Part shown: positions 10,258 to 35,934 of the stretch, piece after piece
How the letters are laid out: every line of letters starts with the position of its first letter
How positions within the stretch are numbered: the first letter of the stretch is position 1
NCBI GenBank assembly: GCA_902800025.1
Contig: CADCDA010000006.1
Location: forward strand, 1 to 64,000
Source: an uncultured Erysipelotrichaceae bacterium
GTDB lineage: Bacteria; Bacillota_I; Bacilli_A; RFN20; CAG-826
Direction of reading: 5' to 3'
Length of the DNA: 64,000 bases
Made by a program: the position numbers and the translations under genes
Notes under the pieces: model-generated
Told to the model about the DNA's origin: nothing
Database searches by the model: none
What the model saw: the letters and a program-made list of their open reading frames with translations, nothing else

Positions 10258-10259
10258 TG

Positions 10260-11516: not shown

Positions 11517-11541
11517 CTAATTAACTAGGAGAACTTTGAAC

Positions 11542-11835: not shown

Positions 11836-11860
11836 TAGTTAACAAAGGAGAATTTTGAAC

Positions 11861-12151
11861 ATGAAAAAAGAATTACTTAAAGGCTTAACAGAAGAACAAA
11901 TCGCTAGAGTTAAAGCTTGTAAAAGTCATGAAGAACTCTTAGCATTAGCAAAAGCTGAAGGCGTTGAATTAACCGATGAACAACTCACTGCTATTAGTGG
12001 TGGTGGTATCTGTAGTGTTGCGTCAGAATTTGGAGAAAATTTAACATTTACTCCTTATAATTGCCACCACTGTGGTTCTAACGATGTTGATGTAGATGGT
12101 AACAACTACACTTGCAAAAAGTGTGGTCACAAATGGACAGTTAACGATTAG
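11861..12151 (+). CDS. Nif11-type precursor peptide 3 with zinc-ribbon-like core
   Basis: 96 residues. Leader MKKELLKGLTEEQ to LTAISGG. Core starts GICSVASEFGENLTFTPY; first knuckle is CHHCGS, replacing the usual Pro by His, second is CKKCGH, then KWTVND. It has its own GGAGA 10 nt upstream but no promoter motif, so it is read from the upstream promoter. The aromatic after the last Cys pair (KW) is shared with most other cores. Confidence 0.85.
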   Translation: MKKELLKGLTEEQIARVKACKSHEELLALAKAEGVELTDEQLTAISGGGICSVASEFGENLTFTPYNCHHCGSNDVDVDGNNYTCKKCGHKWTVND

Positions 12152-12193
12152 ATATAACAATAATATTTTTTAACAACAAAGGAGATTTTAAAA

Positions 12194-12481
12194 ATGAATA
12201 AGGAATTATTAAAAGGTCTAACCAAAGAACAAATTGAAAAAGTTAAAGCATGTAAGAATAGTGATGAACTCTTAGCACTAGCTAAAGCTGAAGGCGTTGA
12301 ATTAACAAACGAACAACTCACCGCTATTAGTGGTGGCGGTGCTTGTAGCGTTGCTTCAGATATTGGAGATTTTTTCAATCCGTTTGATTGCCCAGAATGT
12401 GGCAGCAACAAAGTTGAAGCAGTTAAAGGTAAGGGCAATCTATTCGAATGCAAAAGCTGCGGATTTAGATGGAGAGAGTAA
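12194..12481 (+). CDS. Nif11-type precursor peptide 4 with zinc-ribbon-like core
   Basis: 95 residues. Leader MNKELLKGLTKEQ to LTAISGG. Core GACSVASDIGDFFNPFDC, knuckles CPECGS and CKSCGF, ending RWRE. Third gene of the operon. Same subfamily as 1, 2, 3 and 7 (Cys two residues after GG, SDIGD-NPFDCP motif). Confidence 0.85.
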   Translation: MNKELLKGLTKEQIEKVKACKNSDELLALAKAEGVELTNEQLTAISGGGACSVASDIGDFFNPFDCPECGSNKVEAVKGKGNLFECKSCGFRWRE

Positions 12482-12489
12482 GAGATTCT

Positions 12490-12759
12490 ATGAAAGAAGA
12501 ATTATTAAAAGGTTTAACAGAAGAACAAATTGCTAAAGTCAAAACTTGCAAAACCCAAGAAGAATTATTAAAACTTGCAAAAGCTGAAGGCGTTGAATTA
12601 ACTAGTGAACAAATTGAAGCTGTCAGCGGTGGTGGATGCTTATCTAGTATGAAATGCCCAAATTGTGGTTCGAAAGATTTTAGAAAGTTGCCAAATTATC
12701 AAATAAGCGGATGCTCATCTTATCAATGTAATCAATGTGGTCACGAGTGGTCTCTATAA
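12490..12759 (+). CDS. Nif11-type precursor peptide 5 with zinc-ribbon-like core
   Basis: 89 residues from ATG 12490, aligned with the other leaders; an in-frame ATG at 12469 would overlap gene 4 by 13 bases. Leader MKEELLKGLTEEQ to IEAVSGG. Shorter core GCLSSMKCPNCGSKD, second knuckle CNQCGH with EWSL, and an extra Cys in SGCSSYQ. Last gene of the operon; 8 bases separate it from gene 4. Confidence 0.83.
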   Translation: MKEELLKGLTEEQIAKVKTCKTQEELLKLAKAEGVELTSEQIEAVSGGGCLSSMKCPNCGSKDFRKLPNYQISGCSSYQCNQCGHEWSL

Positions 12760-12770
12760 TATAGACACAA

Positions 12771-12837
12771 TAAGTGAGTTAACAAAACATTGTTAAAAGG
12801 TGAACTATACATCAAAAAAATTTATCCAGAATATATT
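12771..12837 (+). repeat. Degraded repeat E copy (right half)
   Basis: AATAAGTGAGTTAACA and TTTATCCAGAATATATTAG resemble the inner left arm and the right end of E1 and E2. The terminator that follows, AGACCTC/GGGGTC, is in the place of the E2 terminator. Confidence 0.4.
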
Positions 12838-12860
12838 AGACCTCTTCGGGGGTCTTTTTT
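12838..12860 (+). terminator. Terminator after precursor operon 2-5
   Basis: GACCTC, tetraloop TTCG, GGGGTC, then TTTTTT. Confidence 0.8.
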
Positions 12861-12895
12861 GTGGCACTTTTGTGACAACAATTATGATAGGATAT
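12860..12895 (+). promoter_or_regulatory. TGTGRCA direct-repeat promoter, copy d
   Basis: TGTGGCACTTTTGTGACA followed by TATGATAGGATAT. Precedes precursor 6. Confidence 0.75.
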
Positions 12896-12919
12896 GTTTG
12901 ATAAAGGAGAACCTTACAT

Positions 12920-13204
12920 ATGAAAAAAGATTTATTAAAAGGCTTAACCAAAGAACAAATCGCTAAAGTTAAAGCGTGTAAAAACCAAGACGAAATCTTG
13001 GCTTTAGCAAAAAAAGAAGGCGTTGATCTTTCAGAAGAACAACTCGCAGCAGTCAGTGGAGGAGGATGCTTTTCCACAACTAAGTGTCCAGAATGTGGTT
13101 GCACAAAACATCATAAACAAACGGATTATGTTGGGCCAGGTGGTTCAATTGCTCGTACATTCTATATTTGCGATAATTGCGGCCATAGGTGGCTAGAAAA
13201 CTAA
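12920..13204 (+). CDS. Nif11-type precursor peptide 6 with zinc-ribbon-like core
   Basis: 94 residues. Leader MKKDLLKGLTKEQ to LAAVSGG. Core GCFSTTKCPECGCTKHHK has an extra Cys in the first knuckle; a Gly/Pro linker YVGPGGSIARTF precedes CDNCGHRW. It is monocistronic with its own promoter and terminator. Two adjacent His near the first knuckle could also be metal ligands. Confidence 0.85.
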   Translation: MKKDLLKGLTKEQIAKVKACKNQDEILALAKKEGVDLSEEQLAAVSGGGCFSTTKCPECGCTKHHKQTDYVGPGGSIARTFYICDNCGHRWLEN

Positions 13205-13205
13205 T

Positions 13206-13229
13206 AAGCCCTTTGGGGCTTTTATTTTC
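13206..13229 (+). terminator. Terminator after precursor 6
   Basis: AAGCCC, loop TTTG, GGGCTT, then TTATTTT. Confidence 0.75.
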
Positions 13230-13307
13230 AGATATCCCATGTATTGATGATTGTGGAAATCATTTTATCTGTATAATCGACTAATTCTTCAACAGTCTTT
13301 TCTTTTG

Positions 13308-13341
13308 TGTGGCACATTTGTGACAAATAGTGTGATAACAT
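13308..13341 (+). promoter_or_regulatory. TGTGRCA direct-repeat promoter, copy e
   Basis: TGTGGCACATTTGTGACA followed by GTGTGATAACAT, the consensus form. Precedes precursor 7. Confidence 0.78.
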
Positions 13342-13367
13342 AAAATCAACAAAGGAGAACTTTGAAC

Positions 13368-13655
13368 ATGAGAGAAGATTTATTAAAAGGCTTAACCAAA
13401 GAACAAATCGCTAAAGTTAAAGCGTGTAAAAATAGTGAAGAACTTTTAGCGTTAGCAAAAGAAGAAGGCATTGAACTAACCGATGAACAACTCAAGGCCA
13501 TCAGTGGCGGCGGCGCTTGTAGTGTTGTTTCAGATATCGGAGATAAAATCAATCCTTTTGATTGCCCATTTTGCGGTTATAACGGCCGCTTTGATAAGGA
13601 CGGCAATGTTGTCACTTGTCCAAAATGTGGAAAATCTTGGAGAGATAACGGTTAA
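13368..13655 (+). CDS. Nif11-type precursor peptide 7 with zinc-ribbon-like core
   Basis: 95 residues. Leader MREDLLKGLTKEQ to LKAISGG. Core GACSVVSDIGDKINPFDC, knuckles CPFCGY and CPKCGK, then SWRDNG. The SDIGD-NPFDCP stretch is nearly identical to precursors 1 and 4, showing recent duplication, while the segment between the knuckles has diverged. Confidence 0.85.
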   Translation: MREDLLKGLTKEQIAKVKACKNSEELLALAKEEGIELTDEQLKAISGGGACSVVSDIGDKINPFDCPFCGYNGRFDKDGNVVTCPKCGKSWRDNG

Positions 13656-13721
13656 TTTTTAAAGCTTTTAGATATTCGAAAATAAGTATCTCGAATGCAA
13701 AAAAAGAATAAGCCTCTAAAA

Positions 13722-13748
13722 AGCCGAGTGTAAAAGCTCGGTTTTTTT
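13722..13748 (+). terminator. Terminator after precursor 7
   Basis: AGCCGAG, loop TGTAAA, AGCTCGG with TTTTTTT. Confidence 0.78.
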
Positions 13749-13749
13749 G

Positions 13750-13783
13750 TGTGGCACATTTGTGACAACCGATGTGATATTCT
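13750..13783 (+). promoter_or_regulatory. TGTGRCA direct-repeat promoter, copy f
   Basis: TGTGGCACATTTGTGACA followed by GATGTGATATTCT. Precedes precursors 8 and 9. Confidence 0.75.
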
Positions 13784-13809
13784 AAATCGACCAAAGGGGA
13801 ACTATGAGC

Positions 13810-14100
13810 ATGAAAAAAGAATTATTAAATGGCTTAAGCGAAGAACAAATTGTAAAGATTAAATCTTGCAAAAACCAAGAAGAGATTTTAAAACTTGCTA
13901 GAGAAGAAGGCGTTGAACTTTCCGAAGAACAATTAGCTGCAGTTAATGGTGGTTGTGGCAAACCAAGTTCACCATGCCATTGTCCTAAATGCAAATCACA
14001 TAATATTCATTTTCAATTTGATAATGATGACATTATTGATTTCAGCCCTGCTTATGATTGTGAATGTTATGATTGTGGTTATAAATGGAAAAAAGAATAA
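13810..14100 (+). CDS. Nif11-type precursor peptide 8 with zinc-ribbon-like core
   Basis: 96 residues from ATG 13810 (a second ATG lies in frame at 13804). Leader MKKELLNGLSEEQ to LAAVNGG. Core starts directly with Cys, CGKPSSPCHCPKCKS, and ends CECYDCGYKWKKE: six or more Cys, richer than the SDIGD type, with an acidic FDNDDIIDF linker. First gene of a two-gene unit. Confidence 0.84.
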   Translation: MKKELLNGLSEEQIVKIKSCKNQEEILKLAREEGVELSEEQLAAVNGGCGKPSSPCHCPKCKSHNIHFQFDNDDIIDFSPAYDCECYDCGYKWKKE

Positions 14101-14115
14101 TTTTAGGAGACTATC

Positions 14116-14385
14116 ATGAATAAGGAATTATTAAAAGGTTTAACTGAAGAACAAATCGCAAAAGTAAAAAAATGCAAAAACGGTGATGAACTATTAGCGT
14201 TAGCAAAATCTGAAGGTATTCAACTTACCGATGAACAACTTGCCGCTGTTAGTGGTGGATGTTTGTTAGAAAGCACCCCAACCTTTACTTGCCCAAAATG
14301 TGGTTCAACAGAAGTGTGGGGCCATGATATGGGCAATTACTGGGATTGTATCTGCAGCAAATGCAAACATCACTGGTACGATTAA
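14116..14385 (+). CDS. Nif11-type precursor peptide 9 with zinc-ribbon-like core
   Basis: 89 residues. Leader MNKELLKGLTEEQ to LAAVSGG. Core CLLESTPTFTCPKCGSTEV, second part CICSKCKHHWYD. The STPTFTCPKCGS motif is shared with precursors 13 and 14, so these three form a second subfamily. GGAGA lies 6 nt upstream; the gene follows precursor 8 by 15 bases. Confidence 0.84.
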   Translation: MNKELLKGLTEEQIAKVKKCKNGDELLALAKSEGIQLTDEQLAAVSGGCLLESTPTFTCPKCGSTEVWGHDMGNYWDCICSKCKHHWYD

Positions 14386-14421
14386 TAAACAATTAAGTCA
14401 CCTTATGGTGAATCGATAAGA

Positions 14422-14460
14422 TAAAAGTAGACATGTTTAAAAGTGTTGTCTACTTTTTCT
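14422..14460 (+). terminator. Long-stem terminator after precursor 9
   Basis: AAAAGTAGACA pairs with TGTCTACTTTT across a loop of about 13 nt, followed by TCTTT. Confidence 0.75.
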
Positions 14461-14496
14461 TTAAACAAAATTGGAATAATACGGATATAGGATTTG

Positions 14497-14530
14497 TGTG
14501 GCACATTTGTGACAATTAGTGTGATAACAT
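14497..14530 (+). promoter_or_regulatory. TGTGRCA direct-repeat promoter, copy g
   Basis: TGTGGCACATTTGTGACA followed by GTGTGATAACAT. A scrap of repeat E (AATAATACGGATATAGG) lies just upstream at 14474-14490. Precedes precursor 10. Confidence 0.78.
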
Positions 14531-14555
14531 CTAATTACCTTAGGAGAAATTTGAT

Positions 14556-14852
14556 ATGAGAGAAGAATTATTAAAAGGATTAACAGAAGAACAAATCGCA
14601 AAAGTTAAAGCCTGCAAAAGCAGTGATGAACTTTTAGCTTTAGCCCAACAAGAAGGCGTTGAATTAACAGATGAACAATTAAGAATTGTTAGTGGTGGTG
14701 GAAAAGACTATTGTCAATCTACACCAAACGATCCGTGTATGTATTGTGGATCAAAAGACGTCAAATATAAAAGACAAAGCACCGGCGTTTTATTTGATTA
14801 CCAATTCGAATGCACATGTAGAACATGCGGACGCACCTTTTATATTTTCTAA
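14556..14852 (+). CDS. Nif11-type precursor peptide 10 with zinc-ribbon-like core
   Basis: 98 residues. Leader MREELLKGLTEEQ to LRIVSGG. Core GKDYCQSTPNDPCMYCGSKD, ending ECTCRTCGRTFYIF: first knuckle CMYC, second CRTC, two extra Cys. Hydrophobic C-terminus, unlike the charged ends of most others. Monocistronic. Confidence 0.83.
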   Translation: MREELLKGLTEEQIAKVKACKSSDELLALAQQEGVELTDEQLRIVSGGGKDYCQSTPNDPCMYCGSKDVKYKRQSTGVLFDYQFECTCRTCGRTFYIF

Positions 14853-14880
14853 TCAATAAATAATCATTTATCTAAGATAT

Positions 14881-14903
14881 AAGCCGTTTGATAACGGCTT
14901 TTT
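14881..14903 (+). terminator. Terminator after precursor 10
   Basis: AAGCCGT, loop TTGATA, ACGGCTT, TTTT. Confidence 0.75.
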
Positions 14904-14946
14904 ATGTTTATTAACAACACTGGTCTTGCTGTGACTATAAATCGAG

Positions 14947-14980
14947 TGTGGCAGGTTTGTGACAGTCTGTGTGATATTAT
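14947..14980 (+). promoter_or_regulatory. TGTGRCA direct-repeat promoter, copy h
   Basis: TGTGGCAGGTTTGTGACA followed by TGTGTGATATTAT. The spacer between the two repeats differs (GG), yet the 11-bp period is kept. Precedes precursor 11. Confidence 0.75.
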
Positions 14981-15006
14981 CAAAATAGCAAAGGAGAACC
15001 TTGAAC

Positions 15007-15297
15007 ATGAAAAGAAATTTATTAAAAGGTTTAAGCGAAGAACAAGTCGCCAAAATTAAAGCTTGTAAGAATAACGAAGAATTATTAGCATTAGCGAAAA
15101 AAGAAGGCGTTGAATTAACTGATGAACAATTAGCTGCGGTTACTGGTGGATGTGGAACTTACACAGTTAGGTGCCCAAAATGTGGCAGTAACATCATCGT
15201 TGAAGATTGCGTAGGACCAAAAGATTATTACTGCAATAACTGCGGGCATGAATTCAATGACAACCTTTGGGAAGATTTTAAAAATCTTGTTAGTTAA
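15007..15297 (+). CDS. Nif11-type precursor peptide 11 with zinc-ribbon-like core
   Basis: 96 residues from ATG 15007. Leader MKRNLLKGLSEEQ to LAAVTGG. Core CGTYTVRCPKCGSNIIVEDC with a lone Cys between knuckles, then YYCNNCGHEF and a 14-residue tail NDNLWEDFKNLVS that may be a short amphipathic helix; no other precursor has such a tail. Confidence 0.84.
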   Translation: MKRNLLKGLSEEQVAKIKACKNNEELLALAKKEGVELTDEQLAAVTGGCGTYTVRCPKCGSNIIVEDCVGPKDYYCNNCGHEFNDNLWEDFKNLVS

Positions 15298-15302
15298 TAA
15301 AT

Positions 15303-15340
15303 CGTTGTCCAAATAAAAGACGTTTAAACGACTTTATCTT
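15303..15340 (+). repeat. Degraded fragment resembling repeat E
   Basis: TTGTCCAAATAAAAG and AAACGACTTTATCTTA recall the TTGTCCAAAAG and AAACGACTTATCC parts of E1, E4 and E5. Too short to be sure. Confidence 0.25.
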
Positions 15341-15341
15341 A

Positions 15342-15375
15342 TGTGACACATTTGTGACAACTAGTGTGATAACAT
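15342..15375 (+). promoter_or_regulatory. TGTGRCA direct-repeat promoter, copy i
   Basis: TGTGACACATTTGTGACA followed by GTGTGATAACAT. Precedes precursor 12. Confidence 0.77.
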
Positions 15376-15401
15376 AAAATCAACAAAGGAGAACTTTGAA
15401 T

Positions 15402-15689
15402 ATGAGAGAAGAATTATTAAAAGGTTTAACTGAAGAACAAATTGCTAAATTAAACGCGTGTAAGAGTCAAGAAGAGATACTTAAACTCGCCAAAGAAGAA
15501 GGTATTGAACTTAGCGGAGAACAACTAGAAGCTGTCAATGGCGGATGTGGAAAAAGCAAAGAATGGTATGAAATTGATGAGATGCAATGTCCTGAATGCT
15601 TGAATAGACACTGCATGGAAAAAGTATCAGAAGCATGGTATAGATGCAAGTATTGCAACAAAATTACAGTTAATAAAAATCTTGAATAG
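15402..15689 (+). CDS. Nif11-type precursor peptide 12 with divergent zinc-ribbon-like core
   Basis: 95 residues from ATG 15402. Leader MREELLKGLTEEQ to LEAVNGG. Core CGKSKEWYEIDEMQCPECLN, a lone Cys in HCMEK, then RCKYCNKITVNKNLE. The Gly that normally follows the CxxC knuckles is lost in both, and the closing Trp is absent, so this core is the most divergent of the full-length set. Confidence 0.82.
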   Translation: MREELLKGLTEEQIAKLNACKSQEEILKLAKEEGIELSGEQLEAVNGGCGKSKEWYEIDEMQCPECLNRHCMEKVSEAWYRCKYCNKITVNKNLE

Positions 15690-15703
15690 TTTATAATAAG
15701 TAT

Positions 15704-15729
15704 AGCTGGGTATTAAACCCAGCTTTTTG
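15704..15729 (+). terminator. Terminator after precursor 12
   Basis: AGCTGGG, loop TATTAAA, CCCAGCT, TTTTGT. Confidence 0.78.
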
Positions 15730-15755
15730 TTTGGATTTATTCGTCATAGATGTAG

Positions 15756-15790
15756 TGTGGCACTTTTGTGACAGCACGTGTGTACAATAT
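15756..15790 (+). promoter_or_regulatory. TGTGRCA direct-repeat promoter, copy j
   Basis: TGTGGCACTTTTGTGACA followed by TGTGTACAATAT; here the -10 is TACAAT. It drives an exported protein rather than a precursor. Confidence 0.75.
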
Positions 15791-15818
15791 ATGCGACTTA
15801 TTGAAGGAGAACATTATT

Positions 15819-16475
15819 ATGACGAAGAAAATAATAACATTATTATCTGTTGCATCAGTTACTGCTGTAACACTAATTGGATTAACTGCCATTAACTTAA
15901 GAGAGCCAAATATTTCTTTTGTTTCTTATGCAGAACCAAAGAGTCTTCTTTTTGATTCTGCTTTGGCTAGCACATACATGAGGGGCGGCAATGTTTACGA
16001 CAAAAAAACCATTCCAGCAGACGAAGATCATAGTGATATAAAAATTATGTGTCTAGGTGTGAAATCTTATGGCGGTGGACAATTCTGTTATACTGGAGAA
16101 AATCAAATAGGGAAGACATTAACGATTATAGTTGGAGTTAATAATTTGCAATCTGCCTCATTTACCTTTAAAAGCAATTATGCAAATGTTATCGATCCAA
16201 ATGAAATAGGCTTTAATGCGATTGCAAAATTTCATGGTGAAAAATTTGATTTTACTTACCCAGATTCATCTTCTTGGTCTCCTGTTATATTTTCACATGA
16301 GTTTGAGAGTAGCGACGTTGAACGCAATGTCAATAAGACTCTTACATGGAACAAAACAACAGAAGTTGGTGTTGCTAGATATATTCAGTTTAAGTTTACA
16401 CTTGTCAGCGATACTCGATCCTCCGAATATGTTCCGTTGAATTTGGTCAGTTTCACTCTTACTTGGTCGTGCTAA
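15819..16475 (+). CDS. Exported protein of unknown function inside the precursor array
   Basis: 218 residues from ATG 15819 (GAAGGAG 10 nt upstream; earlier in-frame codons lie inside the promoter). Signal peptide at residues 4-23 (KIITLLSVASVTAVTLIGLT), no lipobox, then a beta-rich domain (IGKTLTIIVGVNNLQSASFT, ARYIQFKFTLVSDT, VPLNLVSFTLTWSC) reminiscent of beta-sandwich carbohydrate-binding folds and of the N-terminal part of the 643-aa exported protein. It shares their promoter motif. It could be a partner or receptor of the peptides; this is inference only. Confidence 0.6.
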   Translation: MTKKIITLLSVASVTAVTLIGLTAINLREPNISFVSYAEPKSLLFDSALASTYMRGGNVYDKKTIPADEDHSDIKIMCLGVKSYGGGQFCYTGENQIGKTLTIIVGVNNLQSASFTFKSNYANVIDPNEIGFNAIAKFHGEKFDFTYPDSSSWSPVIFSHEFESSDVERNVNKTLTWNKTTEVGVARYIQFKFTLVSDTRSSEYVPLNLVSFTLTWSC

Positions 16476-16535
16476 TTAGTGTTAAACCACACATAGATAA
16501 AGCCAAAATAACTTATTCATTTTATAATTGTTAAC

Positions 16536-17489
16536 ATGAAAGTAAAGAAAGTTTGCGCATTAATCGCCACTTCAATCGCGGCAACTTTTGCTGCGTCTTG
16601 TAATCAAACAACTTCTAAAAAGAACATCTATGTCGCGTGGAGCAATAAACAAGATAGCTATAGCTTTATTTCCACCATTAAGACGATTGAAGCAATCGGA
16701 TGTAACCCTGTTGTTTTAGATATGGTTCGTTCCACTGATTTATCTTATAAAGAAGATAACACATTAATTGATGCGGTTGATGAACACGGCATCCTTCTTT
16801 CTAACTTAGCTAAAGAAGTAAAGGCCAATGTTTGGACGCATTCTAATGTTGAAGAAATCGCTAAAGATGTCGACTGCATTATTTTCCCAGGCGGATCAGA
16901 TATCTGCCCAACCTTATGGAAAGATGAAGGGGAGTGGCACGGTATTGAAGGAGATACAGATTATTCTGCGGAAAGAGACGTATCAGATTATTTACTCATG
17001 TCATATTGTTTAGAAAAAGATATTCCGATGTTTGCTATATGTCGTGGAATGCAAATGCTATCTGTTGTATCTGGGGCTAGCATGATTAACGACATCCCAA
17101 CTTATTTTGCTTCATTAGGGAAAGATGATAATGAAACGCATCGAGACAGCGATAAAAAAGTTTTTGCGGCTCATGATGTTCAAATAACAGATACATCATC
17201 TTTGTTATATGAAATAACAAATACAGGAACACTTAAAAATGTTCCTTCTTGGCATCACCAAGGTGTTTTATCGATTAGTGGCACTAAGTTAGCTATTACC
17301 GCTGAAACAATTACTGATGGGGTAAGAATTATTGAAGGAGTGGAAAGAAAAGACCTTTCTTTCTGCTTGGGAGTGCAATTTCATCCAGAAGTCGCAGTTA
17401 GGAAGATTATTGAAAAAGAAGCAGATGCTTCTAATTATATGGACTTAGAGTCTGCTTCATCATTTTTTAAAGCGCTTATCAAAAAATAG
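16536..17489 (+). CDS. Lipoprotein of the peptidase C26 / class I glutamine amidotransferase-like family
   Basis: 317 residues. Signal peptide with lipobox AASC (Cys at about 22), so the protein is lipid-anchored outside the membrane. The GATase-like domain shows IIFPGGSDICP near 110, nucleophile Cys in MFAICRGMQML near 168, a WHHQG segment, and catalytic His-Glu in VQFHPEVA near 288. The family includes PuuD-type gamma-glutamyl-GABA hydrolases; an exported lipoprotein form is uncommon. Substrate unknown. TATAAT ends about 8 bases before ATG 16536 and no Shine-Dalgarno is seen, so the mRNA is probably leaderless. Lies between two regulon promoters but has its own. Confidence 0.8.
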   Translation: MKVKKVCALIATSIAATFAASCNQTTSKKNIYVAWSNKQDSYSFISTIKTIEAIGCNPVVLDMVRSTDLSYKEDNTLIDAVDEHGILLSNLAKEVKANVWTHSNVEEIAKDVDCIIFPGGSDICPTLWKDEGEWHGIEGDTDYSAERDVSDYLLMSYCLEKDIPMFAICRGMQMLSVVSGASMINDIPTYFASLGKDDNETHRDSDKKVFAAHDVQITDTSSLLYEITNTGTLKNVPSWHHQGVLSISGTKLAITAETITDGVRIIEGVERKDLSFCLGVQFHPEVAVRKIIEKEADASNYMDLESASSFFKALIKK

Positions 17490-17491
17490 CG

Positions 17492-17526
17492 TGTGACACC
17501 TTTGTGACAACCAATATGTTAAGTTA
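17492..17526 (+). promoter_or_regulatory. TGTGRCA direct-repeat promoter, copy k
   Basis: TGTGACACCTTTGTGACA followed by TATGTTAAGTTAT. Starts just after the stop of the C26 lipoprotein gene. Precedes precursor 13. Confidence 0.73.
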
Positions 17527-17550
17527 TGATTAGTAGATGAGAACTTAAAT

Positions 17551-17829
17551 ATGAAAGAAGAATTATTAAAAGGATTAAGCGAAGAGCAAATCGCTAAAGC
17601 GAAAGCTTGTAAAAATCAAGAAGAATTATTAGCGTTAGCCAAAGCTGAAGGTGTTCAACTTAACGATGAGCAACTTGCCGCTGTTAGTGGTGGTGGTTTA
17701 TGTATGAGCACCCCAACCTTTACTTGCCCAAAATGTGGGTCCACAAACGTTTCTGCTTATAACCAAACTGGTCCAGCAATAGTCTGGTTTTGTACTTGTA
17801 AAGATTGCAAACACAAGTGGACAGTTTGA
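17551..17829 (+). CDS. Nif11-type precursor peptide 13 with zinc-ribbon-like core
   Basis: 92 residues, TGA stop. Leader MKEELLKGLSEEQ with one change (KAKACKNQEE), ending LAAVSGG. Core GLCMSTPTFTCPKCGSTNV, then WFCTCKDCKHKWTV. Close relative of precursors 9 and 14 (STPTFTCPKCGS). Separated from the main array by the two exported-protein genes. Confidence 0.84.
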   Translation: MKEELLKGLSEEQIAKAKACKNQEELLALAKAEGVQLNDEQLAAVSGGGLCMSTPTFTCPKCGSTNVSAYNQTGPAIVWFCTCKDCKHKWTV

Positions 17830-24734: not shown

Positions 24735-24774
24735 TGTGGCACATTTGTGACAGTCAACGTGATAATGTATAATC
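24735..24774 (+). promoter_or_regulatory. TGTGRCA direct-repeat promoter, copy l
   Basis: TGTGGCACATTTGTGACA followed by ACGTGATAATGTATAAT. Two -10 candidates, GATAAT and TATAAT, overlap. Precedes precursors 14 and 15. Confidence 0.77.
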
Positions 24775-24794
24775 AACAAAGGAGAACTTTGAAT

Positions 24795-25082
24795 ATGAGA
24801 GAAGATTTATTAAAAGGTTTAACTGACGAGCAAATCGCCAAAGTTAAAGCGTGCAAAAACCAAGAAGAGGTTTTAAAACTTGCAAAAGAACAAGGAATTG
24901 AATTAACAAGCGAACAATTAGCCGCGGTTAGTGGTGGTGGCCTTTGTAGAAGCACACCTTCATTTACATGTCCAAAATGTGGCTCATCAAAAGTTAAATC
25001 AAAATATTATGAGAACAGTATAAATACATGGTATGGAAATGACTGTCAAGAATGTGGATTCCACTGGAATGTTGATGCTTAG
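24795..25082 (+). CDS. Nif11-type precursor peptide 14 with zinc-ribbon-like core
   Basis: 95 residues from ATG 24795. Leader MREDLLKGLTDEQ to LAAVSGG. Core GLCRSTPSFTCPKCGSSKV, second knuckle CQECGFHWNVDA; NSINTW in the linker. Related to precursors 9 and 13 although it lies about 7 kb away, beyond the phosphorelay operon, which shows that the array was split or extended by later insertion. Confidence 0.84.
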   Translation: MREDLLKGLTDEQIAKVKACKNQEEVLKLAKEQGIELTSEQLAAVSGGGLCRSTPSFTCPKCGSSKVKSKYYENSINTWYGNDCQECGFHWNVDA

Positions 25083-25099
25083 TTTTGGGAGTAACAAAC

Positions 25100-25303
25100 A
25101 TGTTTAGAGACGAATTATTCAGAGGATACACTGACGAACAAATTAAAAGAGCAAAAGCTTGTAGAACAACCGACGAACTTTTAGAATTAGCAAGAGCAGA
25201 AGGCGTCCAATTAACTGAAGATCAATTAGGCGCTATTTCTGGTGGTGCTTGTTCATCCGATAACAACAAAGATGAAAATGGCAAAAGAAAAATCGATTCA
25301 TAA
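25100..25303 (+). CDS. Nif11-type precursor peptide 15 without zinc ribbon
   Basis: 67 residues from ATG 25100 (GGGAG 8 nt upstream). Leader MFRDELFRGYTDEQ, RAKACRTTDELLELARAEG, DQLGAISGG is recognisable but diverged (R for K at several places). The core is only 18 residues, ACSSDNNKDENGKRKIDS, with one Cys and many charges. Either a degenerate precursor, a different product class, or a leader-bearing decoy. It follows precursor 14 in the same unit. Confidence 0.78.
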   Translation: MFRDELFRGYTDEQIKRAKACRTTDELLELARAEGVQLTEDQLGAISGGACSSDNNKDENGKRKIDS

Positions 25304-25391: not shown

Positions 25392-26585
25392 ATGAGAAAA
25401 AAAGAAGTTTTAACATTAATGTATAGAGACCTTGAGGTTCTATCTTTTTCTGTGGATTATAAAAAAAGCAGAATCGAATTTTTAGAAAAGTTAGAACACT
25501 TTGAAAGAGCTCCTTATGGAATAAATGAAAATACTCCTGACATTTCCATGAAACTGCTTAGATTTTTTAATAGTAGATCAATTCCTTCTACTAGATATGA
25601 CTATGAAGATATCCTTAAAGCAACAGGATGCGAAAATGGCTTTGAATTATCTTTTAGGGGTCATGGTTTATCGCTTTCTAACCATTATTGGTTTAAAAGA
25701 AAAGGCGAAAATTATAAATATGCGGACATCAACTTTTTCACCAATAAGTGGGATGATAGCTTTGCTAGAGCGGTCCTATCTCGCGATTATGAAGCATTAA
25801 AACATTGTGATTTAAATGTTCCAGATATCGTTACTCCTGGTTGGGGATCAAAGGGATGGATTTTTGATGACGGACCCAAACTTTATAAATTTGGTATTGC
25901 TAAAGACAGCCCAGAAGAAGCTATTGCTGAAGCACTTGCTTCTAAAATAGCAGCAAAATTATTTAATGAAGGCGAATATTTAAATTACGAATTAAAGCAA
26001 TATAATGGCCAATATGCATCGGTTTCTTCTCCAATAGTGGGAATTAATGAAGAGCTTATCCCTCTTTCAAATGCGGTTGATCCGGGATTATATCTTATCT
26101 ATCGCTCAAGGAGTACAGACAAAACTCAATCAAAAGTATTTTTTGATCGTCTCGATAATTGTGCGGTGCCAGGAATTCGTGAATTCTTTATCAAGGTATC
26201 TTGTTTTAGAGACTTATGTTTCGTCAGTGATTTACACTTTGATAACATCTCTATAATTAGAGACCTTACAACTGGAAAATTAAGGCTCGCACCTTTATTT
26301 GACTTGGGCGGTGCGTTTGGAAGTTCTAAAACAGGACGAGAAACAATTCGATCAGCGAATAGAGCAACTTTGTTTATGATTTATTTCATGTTTAGTGACC
26401 TTGATCCAGAATGGGATTATTCATGGTATGACCCAAAAAGATTAGAAGGCTCTAAAGAATTAATCGAAGAATATTTATCTAAAAGTGAATTTTATAATCA
26501 CGACATTATCGAATGTATTTTTGAGATCTTTGATCATCAAAAAGCGGTCCTTGATGAATTCGCAAAAAATAGTAAGAAAAAATAA
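25392..26585 (+). CDS. HipA-like protein kinase
   Basis: 397 residues. The N-terminal 130 residues are unfamiliar; the C-terminal part shows WGSKGWIFDDGPKLYKFG, SPEEAIAEALASKIAAKLFN, LCFVSDLHFDNISIIRD and LRLAPLFDLGGAFGS. The DxHxxN catalytic loop and the PLFDxG metal-binding motif are those of HipA/CtkA-type Ser/Thr kinases. No HipB-like antitoxin is adjacent. Targets of relatives include aminoacyl-tRNA synthetases; here the substrate is unknown. ATG 25392 has no Shine-Dalgarno; TATAAA ends about 8 bases before it, so the mRNA may be leaderless. Confidence 0.75.
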   Translation: MRKKEVLTLMYRDLEVLSFSVDYKKSRIEFLEKLEHFERAPYGINENTPDISMKLLRFFNSRSIPSTRYDYEDILKATGCENGFELSFRGHGLSLSNHYWFKRKGENYKYADINFFTNKWDDSFARAVLSRDYEALKHCDLNVPDIVTPGWGSKGWIFDDGPKLYKFGIAKDSPEEAIAEALASKIAAKLFNEGEYLNYELKQYNGQYASVSSPIVGINEELIPLSNAVDPGLYLIYRSRSTDKTQSKVFFDRLDNCAVPGIREFFIKVSCFRDLCFVSDLHFDNISIIRDLTTGKLRLAPLFDLGGAFGSSKTGRETIRSANRATLFMIYFMFSDLDPEWDYSWYDPKRLEGSKELIEEYLSKSEFYNHDIIECIFEIFDHQKAVLDEFAKNSKKK

Positions 26586-26729: not shown

Positions 26730-27128
26730 ATGCTAAACAAAATGAAAAAAGAAAACGTCAGCCTTTCAAATCAAGAAGAATTTAATAAGCGTTTGCAAAA
26801 AACTTCTCCAGTGACTTGGGTTGTTTTATTTATCACAATTGCAATATTGATTGGTTTTTTTGCTTGGGGTTTCTTTTTCAAAATGGTCGATAAAATAATT
26901 GGTACCGCTAAAGTTGTTAGTGGTCAAGTTACGCTTGTTGTTAAAGCAAATGACTATAGCAAATTAGCAGTTGATCAAAAGGTCTATATTTCTGATCAAG
27001 AAGGCAAGATTGATTCTATCGTCGATGGTGAACCAGTGGTTTCTGGATTTACCTTAGCGGATGGTGAATACGATTATAAAGTAGTCGTTAAAGAAATTAG
27101 ACCAATTGATTTCTTACTTGGTAAATAA
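26730..27128 (+). CDS. Small HlyD-like membrane protein of the peptide export operon
   Basis: 132 residues. Cytoplasmic start, one membrane helix at about 29-53 (VTWVVLFITIAILIGFFAWG), then a beta-rich external domain (VDKIIGTAKVVSGQVTLVVK, VDQKVYISDQEGKIDSIV). The position, one helix and beta barrel resemble a much shortened HlyD/NHLM membrane-fusion subunit lacking the coiled-coil hairpin, as expected where no outer membrane exists. TAAAAT abuts the ATG, so the mRNA may be leaderless. First gene of the eight-gene operon. Confidence 0.7.
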   Translation: MLNKMKKENVSLSNQEEFNKRLQKTSPVTWVVLFITIAILIGFFAWGFFFKMVDKIIGTAKVVSGQVTLVVKANDYSKLAVDQKVYISDQEGKIDSIVDGEPVVSGFTLADGEYDYKVVVKEIRPIDFLLGK

Positions 27129-27129
27129 G

Positions 27130-29298
27130 ATGAAAGATATAAAAAAGCCAGTAAATAAAGGAGTTGCGAACACTCCAATTATCATGCAATTAGAAGCCCT
27201 TGAATGTGGAGCGGCTTCTTTAGCTATGGTTATGGCTTATTACGGCAAATGGGTTGCTCTTGAACAAGTCCGTGTCGATTGTGGTGTTTCCCGTAATGGT
27301 AGTAACGCGAAAAATATTTTAAGAGCTGCTAAAAAATATGGATTTAAGACTAAAGGATGCGCTTATAACATCGATAAGTTGAAAAAAGTTGGTAAATTCC
27401 CTGCGATTATTCACTGGGGTGGAGCGCACTTCGTTGTCCTTAATGGTTTTAGAGGAAATAAAGCAATCATTAATGACCCTGCAAAGGGATTAGTGAAAGT
27501 TGATTTAAAAACTTTTGATACCTTCTTTACCGGTATTTATCTAGAAATCGAACCTGATGAAGGCTTTGTTCCAGGTGGAAAAAGAAAGTCTATTCTTACA
27601 TTTGCGAAGAAAAGACTTAAGGGCGCATTTGCTTTAATCGCGTTCTTTGCAATTACAACGATTGTTTTCTATCTCTTTGGAATTATTAATCCGGTGATGA
27701 GTCAGGTGTTTGTTGACTACCTACTAAGTGGAAATAATCCGGACTGGTTACTGCCGTTTATTTTAGTTTTTGCTGGAATTGGTTTATTACAAGTCATAGT
27801 GACCGCAGTCCAAGCCTTATATCAGTTTAAAATTAGAGGAAAACTCGATTTAATTGGTTCGACAACATATATTTGGAAAATCTTAAGATTGCCAATCGAA
27901 TTCTTCTCTCAAAGAATGGTTGGCGACTTACAAAGTAGACAATCAGAAAACGCATCTATTGCGGAAACATTAGTTAACGTCTTTGCACCTTTATTATTCA
28001 ACACAATTATGATTGTTGTTTATTTGGTGTTCATGATTGGCAAGAGCTGGATTCTTACTCTTGTTGGTGTTGTTACTGTTGTTTTAAACGCTTTCATTTC
28101 TCAATACATCGCAAAAGTTAGAGTCAACATTTCTAGAGTTCAATCAAGAGATAACGCTAGACTTGCTGCGATGACTTCTAAAGGTATCGAAATGATTGAA
28201 ACCATTAAATCAAACGGTGCAGAGGAATCATATTTTGATTCTTGGTCTGAAGTTCAAGATAGCGTGACTAAGGGTAAAACAAAAATGGCAAGAACAAATC
28301 AGTTCTTAGGCTTAGTTCCTGCTTTTATCTCCTTGCTTGCTAACTACTCCGTTTTAATTTTAGGTGTTTACTACACAATTGTTGGTCAATTCACAATCGG
28401 TTCTATTTTAGCTTTCCAAGGCTTATTAACTGCCTTCTTAACACCTGCAACTACACTTATCACTAGTGGACAAACACTTCAAGAAATGCGCACATCCATG
28501 GAAAGAGTGGATGACGTTCTTGAATATCCATTAGATGCGAACGCGACACGTGAAATTGAAACTGATGATTATTCCAAGATTAAAGGTAACCTTATTTTAA
28601 AAGATATAACCTTTGGTTATTCTAGATTAGATCGTCCAATTTTAAGCAATTTCAATCTTGAAATTAAACAAGGACAAAAGATTGCAATCGTCGGTACCAC
28701 TGGTAGTGGTAAATCCACATTATCCAAACTTATTTCTGGATTATATTCACCATGGTCTGGCGAGATTATCTTCAATGGAAAGAAAATGGAAGAAATCGAT
28801 CATGAAATCTTTACATCTTCTATCGCGGTTGTCGACCAAGACATTACCTTATTTGAAGATACAATTATGAACAACATCAAGATGTGGGATGAATCTATTG
28901 AAGACTACGAAGCTATTATGGCGTGTAATGACGCGCAAATACATAATCAAATCATTTCTCGTGATGGTGGGTATAACGCCCCTGTTTTAGAAGGTGGTAA
29001 AAACTTCTCTGGTGGAGAAAAACAAAGACTTGAAATCGCTCGTTCTTTGGCGGCAGATCCAAGTATTATCATTTTGGATGAAGCGACAAGTGCGTTAGAC
29101 GCTAAAACTGAGTTTGATGTTGTTAAAGCAATTAAAGCAAGAGGTATTACAACAATTGTTATCGCTCATAGATTATCAACGATTAGAGATGCTGATTTAA
29201 TCGTGGTTCTTGAAAGAGGACATATTGTTGAACAAGGAAATCATGATGAGTTAATGGCCTTAAAAGGTTCTTATTATGATTTAGTTACAAACGAATAA
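27130..29298 (+). CDS. C39-peptidase ABC exporter (NHLM type), leader-cleaving
   Basis: 722 residues from ATG 27130, one base after the preceding stop. Residues 15-150 are a C39 peptidase with Cys 26 (ALECGAASLAMVMAYYG), His 100 (HWGGAHFVVLNG) and Asp 116 (IINDPAKG), all three catalytic residues present. Six-helix permease at about 160-450, ATPase with GTTGSGKST at 522, LSGGEKQ-like FSGGEKQRLEIARSLA and IIILDEATSALD. Such enzymes cut double-glycine leaders and pump the core peptide out; here the 15 Nif11-type leaders ending in GG are the obvious substrates. Confidence 0.92.
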   Translation: MKDIKKPVNKGVANTPIIMQLEALECGAASLAMVMAYYGKWVALEQVRVDCGVSRNGSNAKNILRAAKKYGFKTKGCAYNIDKLKKVGKFPAIIHWGGAHFVVLNGFRGNKAIINDPAKGLVKVDLKTFDTFFTGIYLEIEPDEGFVPGGKRKSILTFAKKRLKGAFALIAFFAITTIVFYLFGIINPVMSQVFVDYLLSGNNPDWLLPFILVFAGIGLLQVIVTAVQALYQFKIRGKLDLIGSTTYIWKILRLPIEFFSQRMVGDLQSRQSENASIAETLVNVFAPLLFNTIMIVVYLVFMIGKSWILTLVGVVTVVLNAFISQYIAKVRVNISRVQSRDNARLAAMTSKGIEMIETIKSNGAEESYFDSWSEVQDSVTKGKTKMARTNQFLGLVPAFISLLANYSVLILGVYYTIVGQFTIGSILAFQGLLTAFLTPATTLITSGQTLQEMRTSMERVDDVLEYPLDANATREIETDDYSKIKGNLILKDITFGYSRLDRPILSNFNLEIKQGQKIAIVGTTGSGKSTLSKLISGLYSPWSGEIIFNGKKMEEIDHEIFTSSIAVVDQDITLFEDTIMNNIKMWDESIEDYEAIMACNDAQIHNQIISRDGGYNAPVLEGGKNFSGGEKQRLEIARSLAADPSIIILDEATSALDAKTEFDVVKAIKARGITTIVIAHRLSTIRDADLIVVLERGHIVEQGNHDELMALKGSYYDLVTNE

Positions 29299-29312: not shown

Positions 29313-31496
29313 ATGGGCTGGTTTGAAGAGCAAGTTAAAACTAGAAAGAAACTCGATGCGAAAACATTCGAAGAATCTTTTATGTCGCTCGCTGGAATTA
29401 GCGTTCCAAATAAAGAAAAGCTCAGCGATGAAGCGATTAGAGAAAACTATGCAATTTCTCAAATCCTTTCCCATTTCCATCACCAAATGGTGGATATTCC
29501 TGATTCCATTAAGACTTTTAATGACAAACTCAATTATGTTTTAAATCAAGTTGATATCGAATATCGTAAAGTTGAATTAAATGAATCTTATGTGGGTGAT
29601 GGTAGTTCTCCTTTACTCATGTTCACTTTCTTCAACAACATCCCAGTTGTTTTATTCCCTAAAGGAAAAGATAAGTATTATTACATTAACTATTCAACAG
29701 GCAAAAGAGTGTATATTGAAGCTTCTTTAGTCAATAGAATTGAACTTGAAGTTTATAACTTCTATAGACCACTTCCAAGCACAAAAGTATCAATAAAAGA
29801 ATATGCGAGATACATTTCTAAATCGGTTCGTCCTATCGATATTATTTTATTAGTACTTTTCTCGGCCGCTGCTTCAGGCGTTGGCTTACTCGTTCCATAT
29901 TTAACCAAGATTTTAACTGGAGATGTCACAATTAGTAAAAACATCTCACAATTCCTTTTGGTGTCGATTTATGTTGTAGCAGCAGCAACAGGCCTGTTAT
30001 TAGTAAATGCGATAAAAGCATATGTTAACTCGGTAATTAGTATAAAGATTGAAAAATCGGTTACACAAGCAACGATGACGCGTGTCTTATCGTTACCAGC
30101 TTCATTCTTTAAAAAGTATAATACCGGAGAACTCTCGGTTAGATTCGCTAGCGTTACTCGACTTGCAGGCACGATTATTAATGGTATCTTTGTTACCTTA
30201 ATTTCTGTTGTTATGTCGCTCGCATATTTATTCCAATTAGTGAGCTTTGCTCCAGTACTAATTCTTCCAGTTGTTTTGATTCTTGTTGTAAATACTGGAT
30301 TCTCGATCTTTGCTTCCTTGCTTCAAAGAAAATATAGTGAAAAACAATTACGACTTTCTTCTAAAGAAGCCGGTGTCACTTATGAAATGATTAACGGAAT
30401 TCAAAAGATTAGATTATCAGGCTCTGAAAAAAGAGTGTTCGCTAAATGGGCAACCACATATTCAAAGTCAGCGAAAGTTAGATATAATCCACCTCTCGTT
30501 CTTCGTTTATCAACTGCGATTTCTTTATTAATCACATTACTTGGCAATATCGCTTTATATTATATTGCTGTTAAGAATAACGTCGCAGTGAGCGATTATA
30601 TGGCGTTTACTTCAAGCTATGGCGTCTTATCTGGTGCTTTCTCTTCTGTTGTTGCGATGGTAGGAGTTATCTTTACCATTCAACCAATTTACGATATGGC
30701 TAGACCAATCTTAGAGGCCGAACCAGAAGCTAAACTTGGAAAGATCAAGCTCAATGAAATTCACGGAAATATCAAATTAGAAAACGTCTCCTTTAGATAT
30801 AATGAAGGTGGACCATTAATTGTTAATAATATGTCATTAGACATTAAAGAAGGCGAATATATCGCTATTGTTGGACAAACTGGATGTGGCAAATCAACTT
30901 TAGTGAGATTGATGCTCGGATTTGAAAAACCAGTTGAAGGTAAAGTCTTATTTGATAATATTAATATTGAAGATGTCGACCTTTCTTCACTTAGAAGAAA
31001 TATTGGCACAGTTATGCAAAATGGTGTCTTATTCCACGCGGATATCTTCTCTAACATCATCATTTCTTGTCCAACCTTAAAAGAAGAAGATGCTTGGGCT
31101 GCTGCAGAAATCGCTAATATCGCGGATGATATCAGAGATATGCCTATGGGTATGAAGACTGTTATTTCTGAAGGCCAAGGCGGCATTTCTGGTGGTCAAA
31201 AGCAAAGAATTATGATTGCTAGAGCAATTGTTCATAAACCAAAGGTTTTGATCTTTGATGAAGCGACAAGTGCTTTGGATAATAAAACTCAGAAGAGTAT
31301 TTCAGATTCTATCAGTAGACTTAACTGTACAAGAATTGTTATCGCTCACCGTTTATCAACAATCAAGAGCGCGGATCGCATTATCATGCTTGAGGGCGGA
31401 AGGATTATTGAAACCGGTAATTATCAAGAATTAATTGATAAGAAGGGCAAGTTTGCTGAATTAGTTGAAAGGCAAAGATTAGATAATAACAAATAG
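29313..31496 (+). CDS. Second NHLM-type ABC exporter without peptidase
   Basis: 727 residues, GAAAGGAG upstream of ATG 29313. An N-terminal cytoplasmic region of about 165 residues (ILSHFHHQMVDIPDSIKTFN, VELNESYVGDGSSPLLMFTF) replaces the C39 domain; then six helices and an ATPase with GQTGCGKST at about 521, ISGGQKQRIMIARAIV and LIFDEATSALD. In NHLM clusters the two ABC proteins form a pair, presumably a heterodimer. Located directly behind the C39 exporter. Confidence 0.9.
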   Translation: MGWFEEQVKTRKKLDAKTFEESFMSLAGISVPNKEKLSDEAIRENYAISQILSHFHHQMVDIPDSIKTFNDKLNYVLNQVDIEYRKVELNESYVGDGSSPLLMFTFFNNIPVVLFPKGKDKYYYINYSTGKRVYIEASLVNRIELEVYNFYRPLPSTKVSIKEYARYISKSVRPIDIILLVLFSAAASGVGLLVPYLTKILTGDVTISKNISQFLLVSIYVVAAATGLLLVNAIKAYVNSVISIKIEKSVTQATMTRVLSLPASFFKKYNTGELSVRFASVTRLAGTIINGIFVTLISVVMSLAYLFQLVSFAPVLILPVVLILVVNTGFSIFASLLQRKYSEKQLRLSSKEAGVTYEMINGIQKIRLSGSEKRVFAKWATTYSKSAKVRYNPPLVLRLSTAISLLITLLGNIALYYIAVKNNVAVSDYMAFTSSYGVLSGAFSSVVAMVGVIFTIQPIYDMARPILEAEPEAKLGKIKLNEIHGNIKLENVSFRYNEGGPLIVNNMSLDIKEGEYIAIVGQTGCGKSTLVRLMLGFEKPVEGKVLFDNINIEDVDLSSLRRNIGTVMQNGVLFHADIFSNIIISCPTLKEEDAWAAAEIANIADDIRDMPMGMKTVISEGQGGISGGQKQRIMIARAIVHKPKVLIFDEATSALDNKTQKSISDSISRLNCTRIVIAHRLSTIKSADRIIMLEGGRIIETGNYQELIDKKGKFAELVERQRLDNNK

Positions 31497-31810: not shown

Positions 31811-32965
31811 ATGAGACACGTTTTAAATGGTGATATTTTAACCATATTCTTAGAAGGAGAACTCAATTCCTATAACGCTGAGTCGATTGGCGCAGAAATA
31901 GACGGAATTATTAAAGGCAAAAGTTTTAAGAATCTAGTTTTAGATTTGGAAAGACTCCGCTATATTTCTAGTGCTGGATTAAGAGTTGTCCTTAAACTAA
32001 AACAACAATTTGATAACTTATCAATTATCAATGCTTCTTTAGAAGTTTATGATGTTTTCCAAATGACTGGTTTTACCAGCATGTTAAACATCTCAAAAGC
32101 TTTAAGAAAAATCGACATTAATGGCGCAGAAGTCATTGGTGATGGATTCTTTTCTACTGTTTATCGCCTGGATAAAGACACAATTGTTAAAGTCTTTAAC
32201 CGCACAAGTGATCCAGAGCAAATCGAAAGAGAATTACGTTTAGCAAAAGAAGCATTTATTCTTGGAGTTCCAACCGCTATATCTTTTGATATTGTTAAAG
32301 CTGGAGACAAGCTAGGCGTTGTCTTTGAAATGCTTGACTGTATGTCGCTTAAAACAGCGGTTTTAACTGACACGAATAGATATCCTGAATATTTGAAAAA
32401 GTATGCAGACCTTCTTAAGAAGATAAACACTACTGAATGCTTTAACCCAATAATTCCAAACATTAAAGAGAAATATTTGGAAAAAGTGGAATATGTTAAA
32501 CCATTCTTAGAAGAAAAATATTATTCAAAAGTTAAGAAATTAATTGAATCAATTGAAGAAAGAAAAACATTTGTTCATGGTGATTGTCATTTTAAAAACA
32601 TCATGGTCCAAAATGGTGAGTTATTACTAATTGATATGGACACTTTATCAGTTGGCCATCCAATCTTTGAACTCGCCGCGATATGCGCACCTTATTGCTT
32701 GTTTAATGAAGATGATCCAGGCAATAGCGAAAAGTTCTTTGGAGTTACTGAAGAACAAGCTAACGGACTATATAATGCCCTTCTCAATACCTATTTCGGT
32801 AAAGACGATAAGGATATTAAAAACAAAATTAGACTTGTTGCTTATCTCCATATGGTGTGGTGGAACCGCATCAACGAACCAACCAACAACAAAAGACTTG
32901 AAGGATGTAGAAGTCGTTTATATAAGCTCCTTGACGAATATAACGACTTAGATATTGGTATATAA
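31811..32965 (+). CDS. STAS domain fused to an APH-like kinase
   Basis: 384 residues. Residues 1-97 repeat the STAS protein upstream (LTIFLEGELNSYNAESIGAE, YISSAGLRVVLKLKQ). Residues 105-384 are an aminoglycoside-phosphotransferase/choline-kinase-like fold: GDGFFSTVYRLDKDTIVKVF (nucleotide loop and Lys), FVHGDCHFKNIMVQNG (catalytic Asp and Asn), LLLIDMDTLSVGHPIFELA (metal-binding Asp). No other antibiotic-resistance hallmark. A kinase joined to a STAS domain could set the phosphorylation state in the partner switch or act on a small molecule. Starts 10 bases after the first STAS gene. Confidence 0.85.
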   Translation: MRHVLNGDILTIFLEGELNSYNAESIGAEIDGIIKGKSFKNLVLDLERLRYISSAGLRVVLKLKQQFDNLSIINASLEVYDVFQMTGFTSMLNISKALRKIDINGAEVIGDGFFSTVYRLDKDTIVKVFNRTSDPEQIERELRLAKEAFILGVPTAISFDIVKAGDKLGVVFEMLDCMSLKTAVLTDTNRYPEYLKKYADLLKKINTTECFNPIIPNIKEKYLEKVEYVKPFLEEKYYSKVKKLIESIEERKTFVHGDCHFKNIMVQNGELLLIDMDTLSVGHPIFELAAICAPYCLFNEDDPGNSEKFFGVTEEQANGLYNALLNTYFGKDDKDIKNKIRLVAYLHMVWWNRINEPTNNKRLEGCRSRLYKLLDEYNDLDIGI

Positions 32966-34854: not shown

Positions 34855-35934
34855 ATGTTTAAAGAATATATATTACAAAACTGGGCATTAATCCTTATAT
34901 TACTTGCGTTTGTTATTTCTTTGATAACAACAGTTTTCTTACGCAAGAAAACGATTATACGTATGTATATTTTAATCGCTGTGATTTTTGTCCTTTCGAT
35001 TATCGTTTTCCTCGAATTCTATTTTGCGGGAAAAGCAGAATATCGAACCGCAAGAACAGTTTTGATGTCTATAAGATATAGTGCGACGCCATTTATTATC
35101 GCTCTTATTATTTATACTCTAGTTAAAAGGATGCGCTGGTTTATTTTTCTACCAGCGGTAGCGGTCTTAATATTAAACATCGTTTCTATTTTTACTGGTA
35201 TCGTTTCAAGTATCGACGCTAATGACACATTAGTTAGAGGACCATTATGGACGATTCCATATATCGCTGTTGGACTTTATAGTGCTGTCCTCATTTATTT
35301 ATTGATTAGGAGAAGCAATAAGAGATTAATAGAAATTGTTCCAATCATCTTCCTAGCGTTTTCTTTAGGATCTGGATTGGTGTTACCATTTGTTTTCCGT
35401 GAAGCATATGCTTCTATTTTCTGTGTTACTATTGCAATTGCTTTATTTGCGTATTATGAATTCTCGGTCCTTTCTTTAACAAAGAAAGATTCATTAACAG
35501 GACTTCTTAATCGTCATGCTTATTATGCAGATATTAGTAACGATCCAAAAAGCATTACCGCTTTAATATCAATTGATATGAATGGATTAAAAGAAATTAA
35601 TGATAATGATGGCCATGCGGCAGGAGATGAAGCGCTTATCACTCTCGCTCTATGCTTTATGCGCCCACTAAAAAATAAACAATCTGGCTATCGTGTCGGT
35701 GGAGATGAATTTATTATCGTCTGTCGTAAAACACCTGAAGAAGATGTTCTCCAATTAGTGGAGAAAATCAAAAAATATGTTTCAGAAACCAAATATACAT
35801 GCTCAATTGGTTACGCTATAAATCCTGATGGCAGTAAACCAATCGCTGAACTTTTAAAAGAGTCAGACGAAATGATGTATTCCGAAAAAGACAGATTCTA
35901 TATTGAATCTGGTAAGAACAGAAGGCATAGTTAA
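34855..35934 (+). CDS. Membrane diguanylate cyclase (GGDEF)
   Basis: 359 residues. Six or seven membrane helices in the first 205 residues, then GGDEF domain: KKDSLTGLLNRHAYY, ISIDMNGLKEINDNDGHAAG, YRVGGDEFIIVCRK (signature at residue 282) and TCSIGYAIN. The active-site motif is intact; the RxxD inhibitory site five residues ahead is absent (NKQS), so no product inhibition is expected. GATAAT lies directly ahead of ATG 34855, so it could also be made from a leaderless promoter of its own, although it is only 28 bases behind the phosphatase gene. Confidence 0.9.
   Translation: MFKEYILQNWALILILLAFVISLITTVFLRKKTIIRMYILIAVIFVLSIIVFLEFYFAGKAEYRTARTVLMSIRYSATPFIIALIIYTLVKRMRWFIFLPAVAVLILNIVSIFTGIVSSIDANDTLVRGPLWTIPYIAVGLYSAVLIYLLIRRSNKRLIEIVPIIFLAFSLGSGLVLPFVFREAYASIFCVTIAIALFAYYEFSVLSLTKKDSLTGLLNRHAYYADISNDPKSITALISIDMNGLKEINDNDGHAAGDEALITLALCFMRPLKNKQSGYRVGGDEFIIVCRKTPEEDVLQLVEKIKKYVSETKYTCSIGYAINPDGSKPIAELLKESDEMMYSEKDRFYIESGKNRRHS

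Follow-up and report, generated by a model that had tools for sequence, protein, structure and literature searches.

A STAS domain fused to an APH-type kinase in Bacilli: a conserved, apparently new variant of the STAS partner switch

Introduction

STAS partner switches are known mainly for releasing transcription factors. The locus described here raises the question of what such a switch may govern when its STAS domain is part of an enzyme. It lies in a 64,000-nucleotide stretch of DNA from an uncultured Erysipelotrichaceae bacterium, which is called the window below. One frame of the window joins a STAS domain to an APH-like kinase, and it is surrounded by genes for a free STAS protein, a membrane protein with both phosphatase and kinase domains, an NHLP-type exporter with Nif11-type leader peptides, and a diguanylate cyclase (Table 1). 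The STAS-APH module is a real and conserved variant of the STAS partner switch, and apparently a new one.

Table 1. Position of the STAS-APH fusion and of the features around it in the window
Feature	Coordinates	Strand	Remarks
Two Nif11-type leader peptides	24747..25303	+	precede the exporter genes; further ones at 9936-17829
Short membrane protein, 132 aa	26730..27128	+	resembles the N-terminus only of the NHLP HlyD protein
NHLP-type ABC exporter with C39 peptidase	27106..29298	+	TIGR03796, 836.7 bits, under the cut-off of 853.3
NHLP-type ABC exporter permease/ATPase	29313..31496	+	TIGR03797, 641.5 bits, under the cut-off of 709.4
Free STAS protein of 97 aa with an intact ISSAGLR loop	31508..31801	+	probably copied from the STAS half of the fusion
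STAS-APH fusion, 384 aa	31811..32965	+	STAS 1-97, APH-like kinase about 100-380
Membrane-anchored PP2C/SpoIIE phosphatase with GHKL (HATPase_c_2) kinase, 619 aa	32967..34826	+	directly downstream of the fusion
Membrane GGDEF diguanylate cyclase	34855..35934	+	possible second output

The fusion protein and its spread

The fusion is read from a single uninterrupted frame, whose strand and coordinates are as first described. Both halves score above their Pfam cut-offs, the STAS domain (PF01740) at residues 6-98 with 51.5 bits against 22.6 and the kinase domain (PF01636, APH) at residues 107-296 with 56.1 bits against 23.2, and both are present in all 34 members scanned, which belong to several families of Bacilli. 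The earlier note, which had described a STAS domain and an APH-like kinase in one protein, is borne out in this respect, and the relatives conserve the fusion rather than encoding STAS and kinase as separate genes throughout. The protein narrowly passes TIGR00377, the model for anti-sigma antagonists of the RsbV/SpoIIAA type (56.1 bits, cut-off 53.45); antagonists of that type are single-domain STAS proteins, and here the APH domain is attached in 34/34 relatives.

The contention that a STAS protein with its own kinase differs from RsbV and SpoIIAA also holds, the catalytic kinase domain being real and conserved. As had been noticed before, neither the HGDCHFKN loop (256-263) nor the metal site DMD (275-277) is disrupted, and among relatives the motifs HGDxHxKN and DMD are invariant, as are residues K127, E141, H256, D258, N263, D275 and D277. 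In the STAS loop, S53, S54, G56, L57 and R58 are invariant in all 54 fusion sequences. Judged by sequence, S54 is the likely phosphosite of the fusion STAS; it aligns with the phosphorylated S56 of SypA in our own alignment, for which the SypA motif was taken from primers in PMC10120452. The GELD motif reads GELN in most fusion members, with the customary Asp replaced by Asn, so docking details may differ.

The AlphaFold model of the fusion, whose input alignment contained some rows from loci found in related genomes, is confident throughout (pLDDT 93.3, pTM 0.81). Its STAS half superposes on SpoIIAA as complexed with SpoIIAB (1th8_B) with Z 15.3 and 1.6 Å over 97 residues. Its APH half superposes on aminoglycoside, choline and macrolide kinases with Z of about 14-16; the nearest solved folds are mostly small-molecule kinases, and the structure of LxmKY is among the matches (Z 14.1). 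At the sequence level, the kinase half comes nearest to the NCBIfam model TIGR02172, with 103.9 bits far under the cut-off of 228.2, and there is weak similarity to the protein-kinase-like families SrkA, RIO1 and Bud32.

Several other identities were considered and rejected. An aminoglycoside resistance enzyme is not supported by APH(6)-I, which scores 14.6 bits against an NCBIfam equivalog cut-off of 325, and the kinase is also fused to STAS. For a phage or plasmid gene, the search gave no phage match and two plasmid matches, both weak and partial, and for a defence system PADLOC gave no match to the fusion or to its PP2C-GHKL partner.

Full-length fusions were recovered as 54 distinct sequences with the frame open across both domains, which argues against a frameshift, a read-through or an assembly artefact. 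The fusion occurs in 50 loci of GTDB genomes, mainly from rumen and gut Bacilli, and a profile search that covered the bacterium's own phylum found it in several further families of the class; a scan across every species of GTDB picks up only close relatives. APH-only homologues are present in two larger genomes. One locus (L049) holds two divergent STAS-APH paralogues, at 6371-7492 and 9001-10152, with 42% and 62% identity to the window copy, and another (L050) holds paralogues paired in the same way. In a further locus (L109/L073, G332:C4), STAS-APH and PP2C-GHKL are interrupted by several stops or frameshifts, pointing to a decaying copy or to assembly errors.

The PP2C-GHKL neighbour

The protein encoded after the fusion scores 175 bits with Pfam SpoIIE and 68.9 bits with HATPase_c_2. 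Its best structural match is the RsbU-RsbW portion of Rv1364c (Z 26.6; rmsd 12.5, two domains), and its residues 479-617 match SpoIIAB with Z 17.1. Among 42-43 such neighbours, the catalytic Glu/Asn pair of the GHKL domain, E524/N528 (numbered from the ATG at 32967), and the metal-site Asp residues of the PP2C domain are invariant, so that catalytic or phosphosite residues are invariant in all three enzymes of the module.

A same-strand PP2C-GHKL gene lies within 6 kb of the fusion in 45 of the 60 loci with enough flank, a set in which some places were fetched twice. Part of the remaining 15 are contig ends, and in one genome (G009) the two genes are really about 100 kb apart. Counted anywhere in the genome, a PP2C-GHKL protein is found in 21/21 fusion genomes versus 7/38 fusion-free ones (Fisher p 2e-10, phylogeny ignored). 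In another genome (G042, locus L116/L023), GHKL, STAS and APH form one 525-aa ORF, which is followed by a free STAS. Across the relatives' loci the fusion is linked to switch genes and not to any metabolic gene, and because it usually adjoins a membrane kinase/phosphatase, it resembles an enzyme under the control of a signalling circuit whose usual target is transcription. The neighbour is expected to be both the writer and the eraser of the phosphoserine at S54.

The free STAS protein

A gap-free alignment of 97 residues between the free and the fused STAS scores 244, against -21 ± 11 for shuffled sequences (z about 25), and the two share 47% identity over 96 residues. This likeness upholds one part of the earlier note, which regarded the N-terminal 97 residues of the fusion as a duplicate of the free protein; the direction of copying is more likely the reverse. 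In a tree of 83 STAS domains, a supported group (99/97) within the fused domains unites 15 fusion-adjacent free STAS proteins from the window's lineage, among them that of the window, and older free STAS proteins from distant loci fall outside the fused group. Since the free STAS is nested among fused ones, the fusion is likely older and its STAS domain the source from which this lineage's free protein was copied. The alternatives survive the AU test (p 0.07 and 0.09), so this order of events is likely but not proven. A free STAS gene lies within 6 kb in 21 of the 45 loci that hold both the fusion and the PP2C-GHKL gene; the other 24 (of the 60) have none within that distance.

Proposed mechanism

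We consider it rather probable that the fusion is the effector of a partner-switching module in which the output enzyme, the APH kinase, is attached to the STAS domain itself and the free STAS protein is a competitor. The membrane PP2C-GHKL protein would phosphorylate and dephosphorylate S54 of the fusion, and docking of STAS on GHKL would depend on the state of S54. In this way the state of S54 would, we infer, free, position or activate the attached APH-fold kinase, which would then phosphorylate a substrate of its own, probably a small molecule or a peptide. The free STAS protein would compete for the same kinase and phosphatase and thereby tune the switch.

We take the main output to be the APH domain itself, with the GGDEF protein next door and the exporter as possible alternatives; the GGDEF gene is not a conserved neighbour of the fusion in the relatives' loci compared. 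A classical anti-sigma role is unlikely, since a search of the 95% complete genome found no sigma factor of the SigB/SigF type, RpoD-like and SigH-like factors being the only ones found, and it is doubtful that the fusion is an "antagonist", as it had been called, in the anti-sigma sense.

The STAS domain is here permanently joined to a small-molecule-type kinase, and several families of Bacilli have inherited it together with its GHKL/PP2C partner. If the proposed mechanism is true, such a protein would show a STAS switch directly gating an enzyme and would connect the switch with peptide export in rumen bacteria. Thanks to the relative with GHKL, STAS and APH in a single chain, the model can be tested on one purified protein.

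Genomic context and alternative explanations

In the window's genus the module is located behind an NHLP/Nif11 exporter, and in the window itself the free STAS gene comes straight after the exporter gene. Such an exporter is present in 12 of the 45 loci with fusion and PP2C-GHKL gene. Among the genomes sampled it is restricted to those with the fusion (13/13), and within the genus it occurs in 11/14 fusion genomes versus 0/5 fusion-free ones (p 0.005). The description of NHLP clusters by Haft 2010 (PMC2887384) makes no mention of STAS, anti-sigma or phosphatase proteins in connection with them. A tentative extension of the preferred reading, which we hold possible but doubtful, is an enzyme-output switch in which the GHKL/PP2C membrane protein directly gates the STAS-fused APH-type kinase, whose targets in this genus would be Nif11-leader peptides bound for export or some other molecule linked to the product.

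Like LxmK of the lexapeptide pathway, the APH domain might more specifically be a RiPP tailoring kinase, here one that phosphorylates Nif11-leader peptides and is gated by the STAS switch, but this is unlikely. The adjoining exporter genes and many leader peptides, the confinement of the exporter to fusion genomes and the match to LxmKY are what this proposal would explain, but many relatives carry the module without exporter and leaders (G008, G016, G028, G033, G034, G042 and G055, for example), and dozens of small-molecule kinases match the fold equally well.

The exporter region has features of its own. The window encodes about 15 Nif11-type leader peptides (9936-17829 and 24747-25303), whose cores resemble small zinc ribbons (CxxC...CxxC), which is not the usual cargo of an NHLP exporter. 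The short membrane protein matches only the first 50 or so residues of the 421-aa NHLP HlyD family, and its relatives are similar in length, as of a shortened adaptor. A HipA_C-like protein (25392-26585, +), has a weak Pfam score (15 bits) and 37.8 bits to PDC-M03A of PADLOC; in loci of the same genus it remains close to the exporter, with about 54% identity. The same genome holds a second partner-switch locus (L130, G000:C8, 7820-12053, -) with a PP2C-GHKL protein and a free STAS, and with a MATE-type transporter that has a C-terminal RsbW-like GHKL domain, beside a 2315-aa NRPS; there, a STAS switch again stands together with a peptide natural product system.

The tight linkage of the fusion to its partner, the natural GHKL-STAS-APH chain and the association with the switch rather than with any metabolic gene would also suit a feedback role, in which the APH kinase phosphorylates the PP2C-GHKL protein or other signalling proteins and two kinases serve one circuit. 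The APH fold mostly serves small molecules, however, and we regard such a role as improbable.

The earlier note had suggested that the APH domain phosphorylates the neighbouring free STAS protein; as a protein kinase, it could also act on its own STAS domain. The two genes adjoin, the ISSAGLR loop is common to both proteins, the catalytic loop is intact, and the weak similarity to SrkA, RIO1 and Bud32 points the same way. This role is nevertheless disfavoured, and in our judgement quite improbable: the nearest solved folds are mostly small-molecule kinases, and the likely kinase of the fusion STAS is the GHKL domain, because the adjoining gene encodes a dedicated PP2C-GHKL protein whose catalytic residues are invariant, 24/60 loci have it and the fusion with no free STAS nearby, and a GHKL-STAS-APH chain occurs naturally. 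It is most improbable that the STAS domains are MlaB-like subunits binding and controlling ABC exporter ATPases, for although MlaB is a precedent for a STAS protein binding an ABC ATPase (its partner being MlaF, with the phosphomimic T52E weakening the binding; PMC7367683) and a STAS gene immediately follows the exporter gene, most fusion loci are without an exporter, the STAS fold is of the SpoIIAA type with a SpoIIAB-type partner encoded next door, and the window STAS gives no MlaB family match.

Comparison with known systems

The literature searched yielded no description of a STAS-APH fusion or of TIGR02172. The APH-fold kinases of TIGR02172 and PF01636 are the closest sequence family of the fusion's kinase half, and their family models span the kinase only; an APH kinase is absent from all the precedents compared (HsbR, SypE, CrsR, CapS and MlaB). 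The reading preferred here, a STAS domain that is switched by the PP2C-GHKL protein and carries its own enzyme, has the STAS fold, the phospho-loop, the GHKL kinase and the PP2C phosphatase in common with the SpoIIAA/SpoIIAB/SpoIIE and RsbV/RsbW/RsbU switches. It differs from them in that the STAS domain has an enzyme attached, a single membrane protein combines kinase and phosphatase, and a cognate sigma factor was not found.

In the HsbR-HsbA-HsbD system of Pseudomonas aeruginosa and the SypE-SypA system of Vibrio fischeri, as is proposed for the window, one protein with both PP2C phosphatase and GHKL kinase acts on a STAS protein. CrsR, like HsbR and SypE, combines kinase and phosphatase, and the target of each is a single-domain STAS protein. 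HsbR and SypE receive their input through a receiver domain, in place of which the window protein has a membrane domain. Phosphorylated HsbA binds the diguanylate cyclase HsbD (PMC6482189), a precedent for a GGDEF output, and the window module has a GGDEF gene downstream. Rv1364c (PDB 3ke6), the best structural match to the PP2C-GHKL neighbour, is a precedent for several switch domains in one chain, although, unlike the window module, it is without an APH kinase. In CapK-CapS (EMBO J 2026), as far as the available part of the paper goes, PP2C is not described, and, as is proposed for the window, a GHKL kinase switches a STAS domain to which an output domain is joined; the output of CapS is a DNA-binding wHTH (PMC13373217), whereas that of the window protein is an enzyme.
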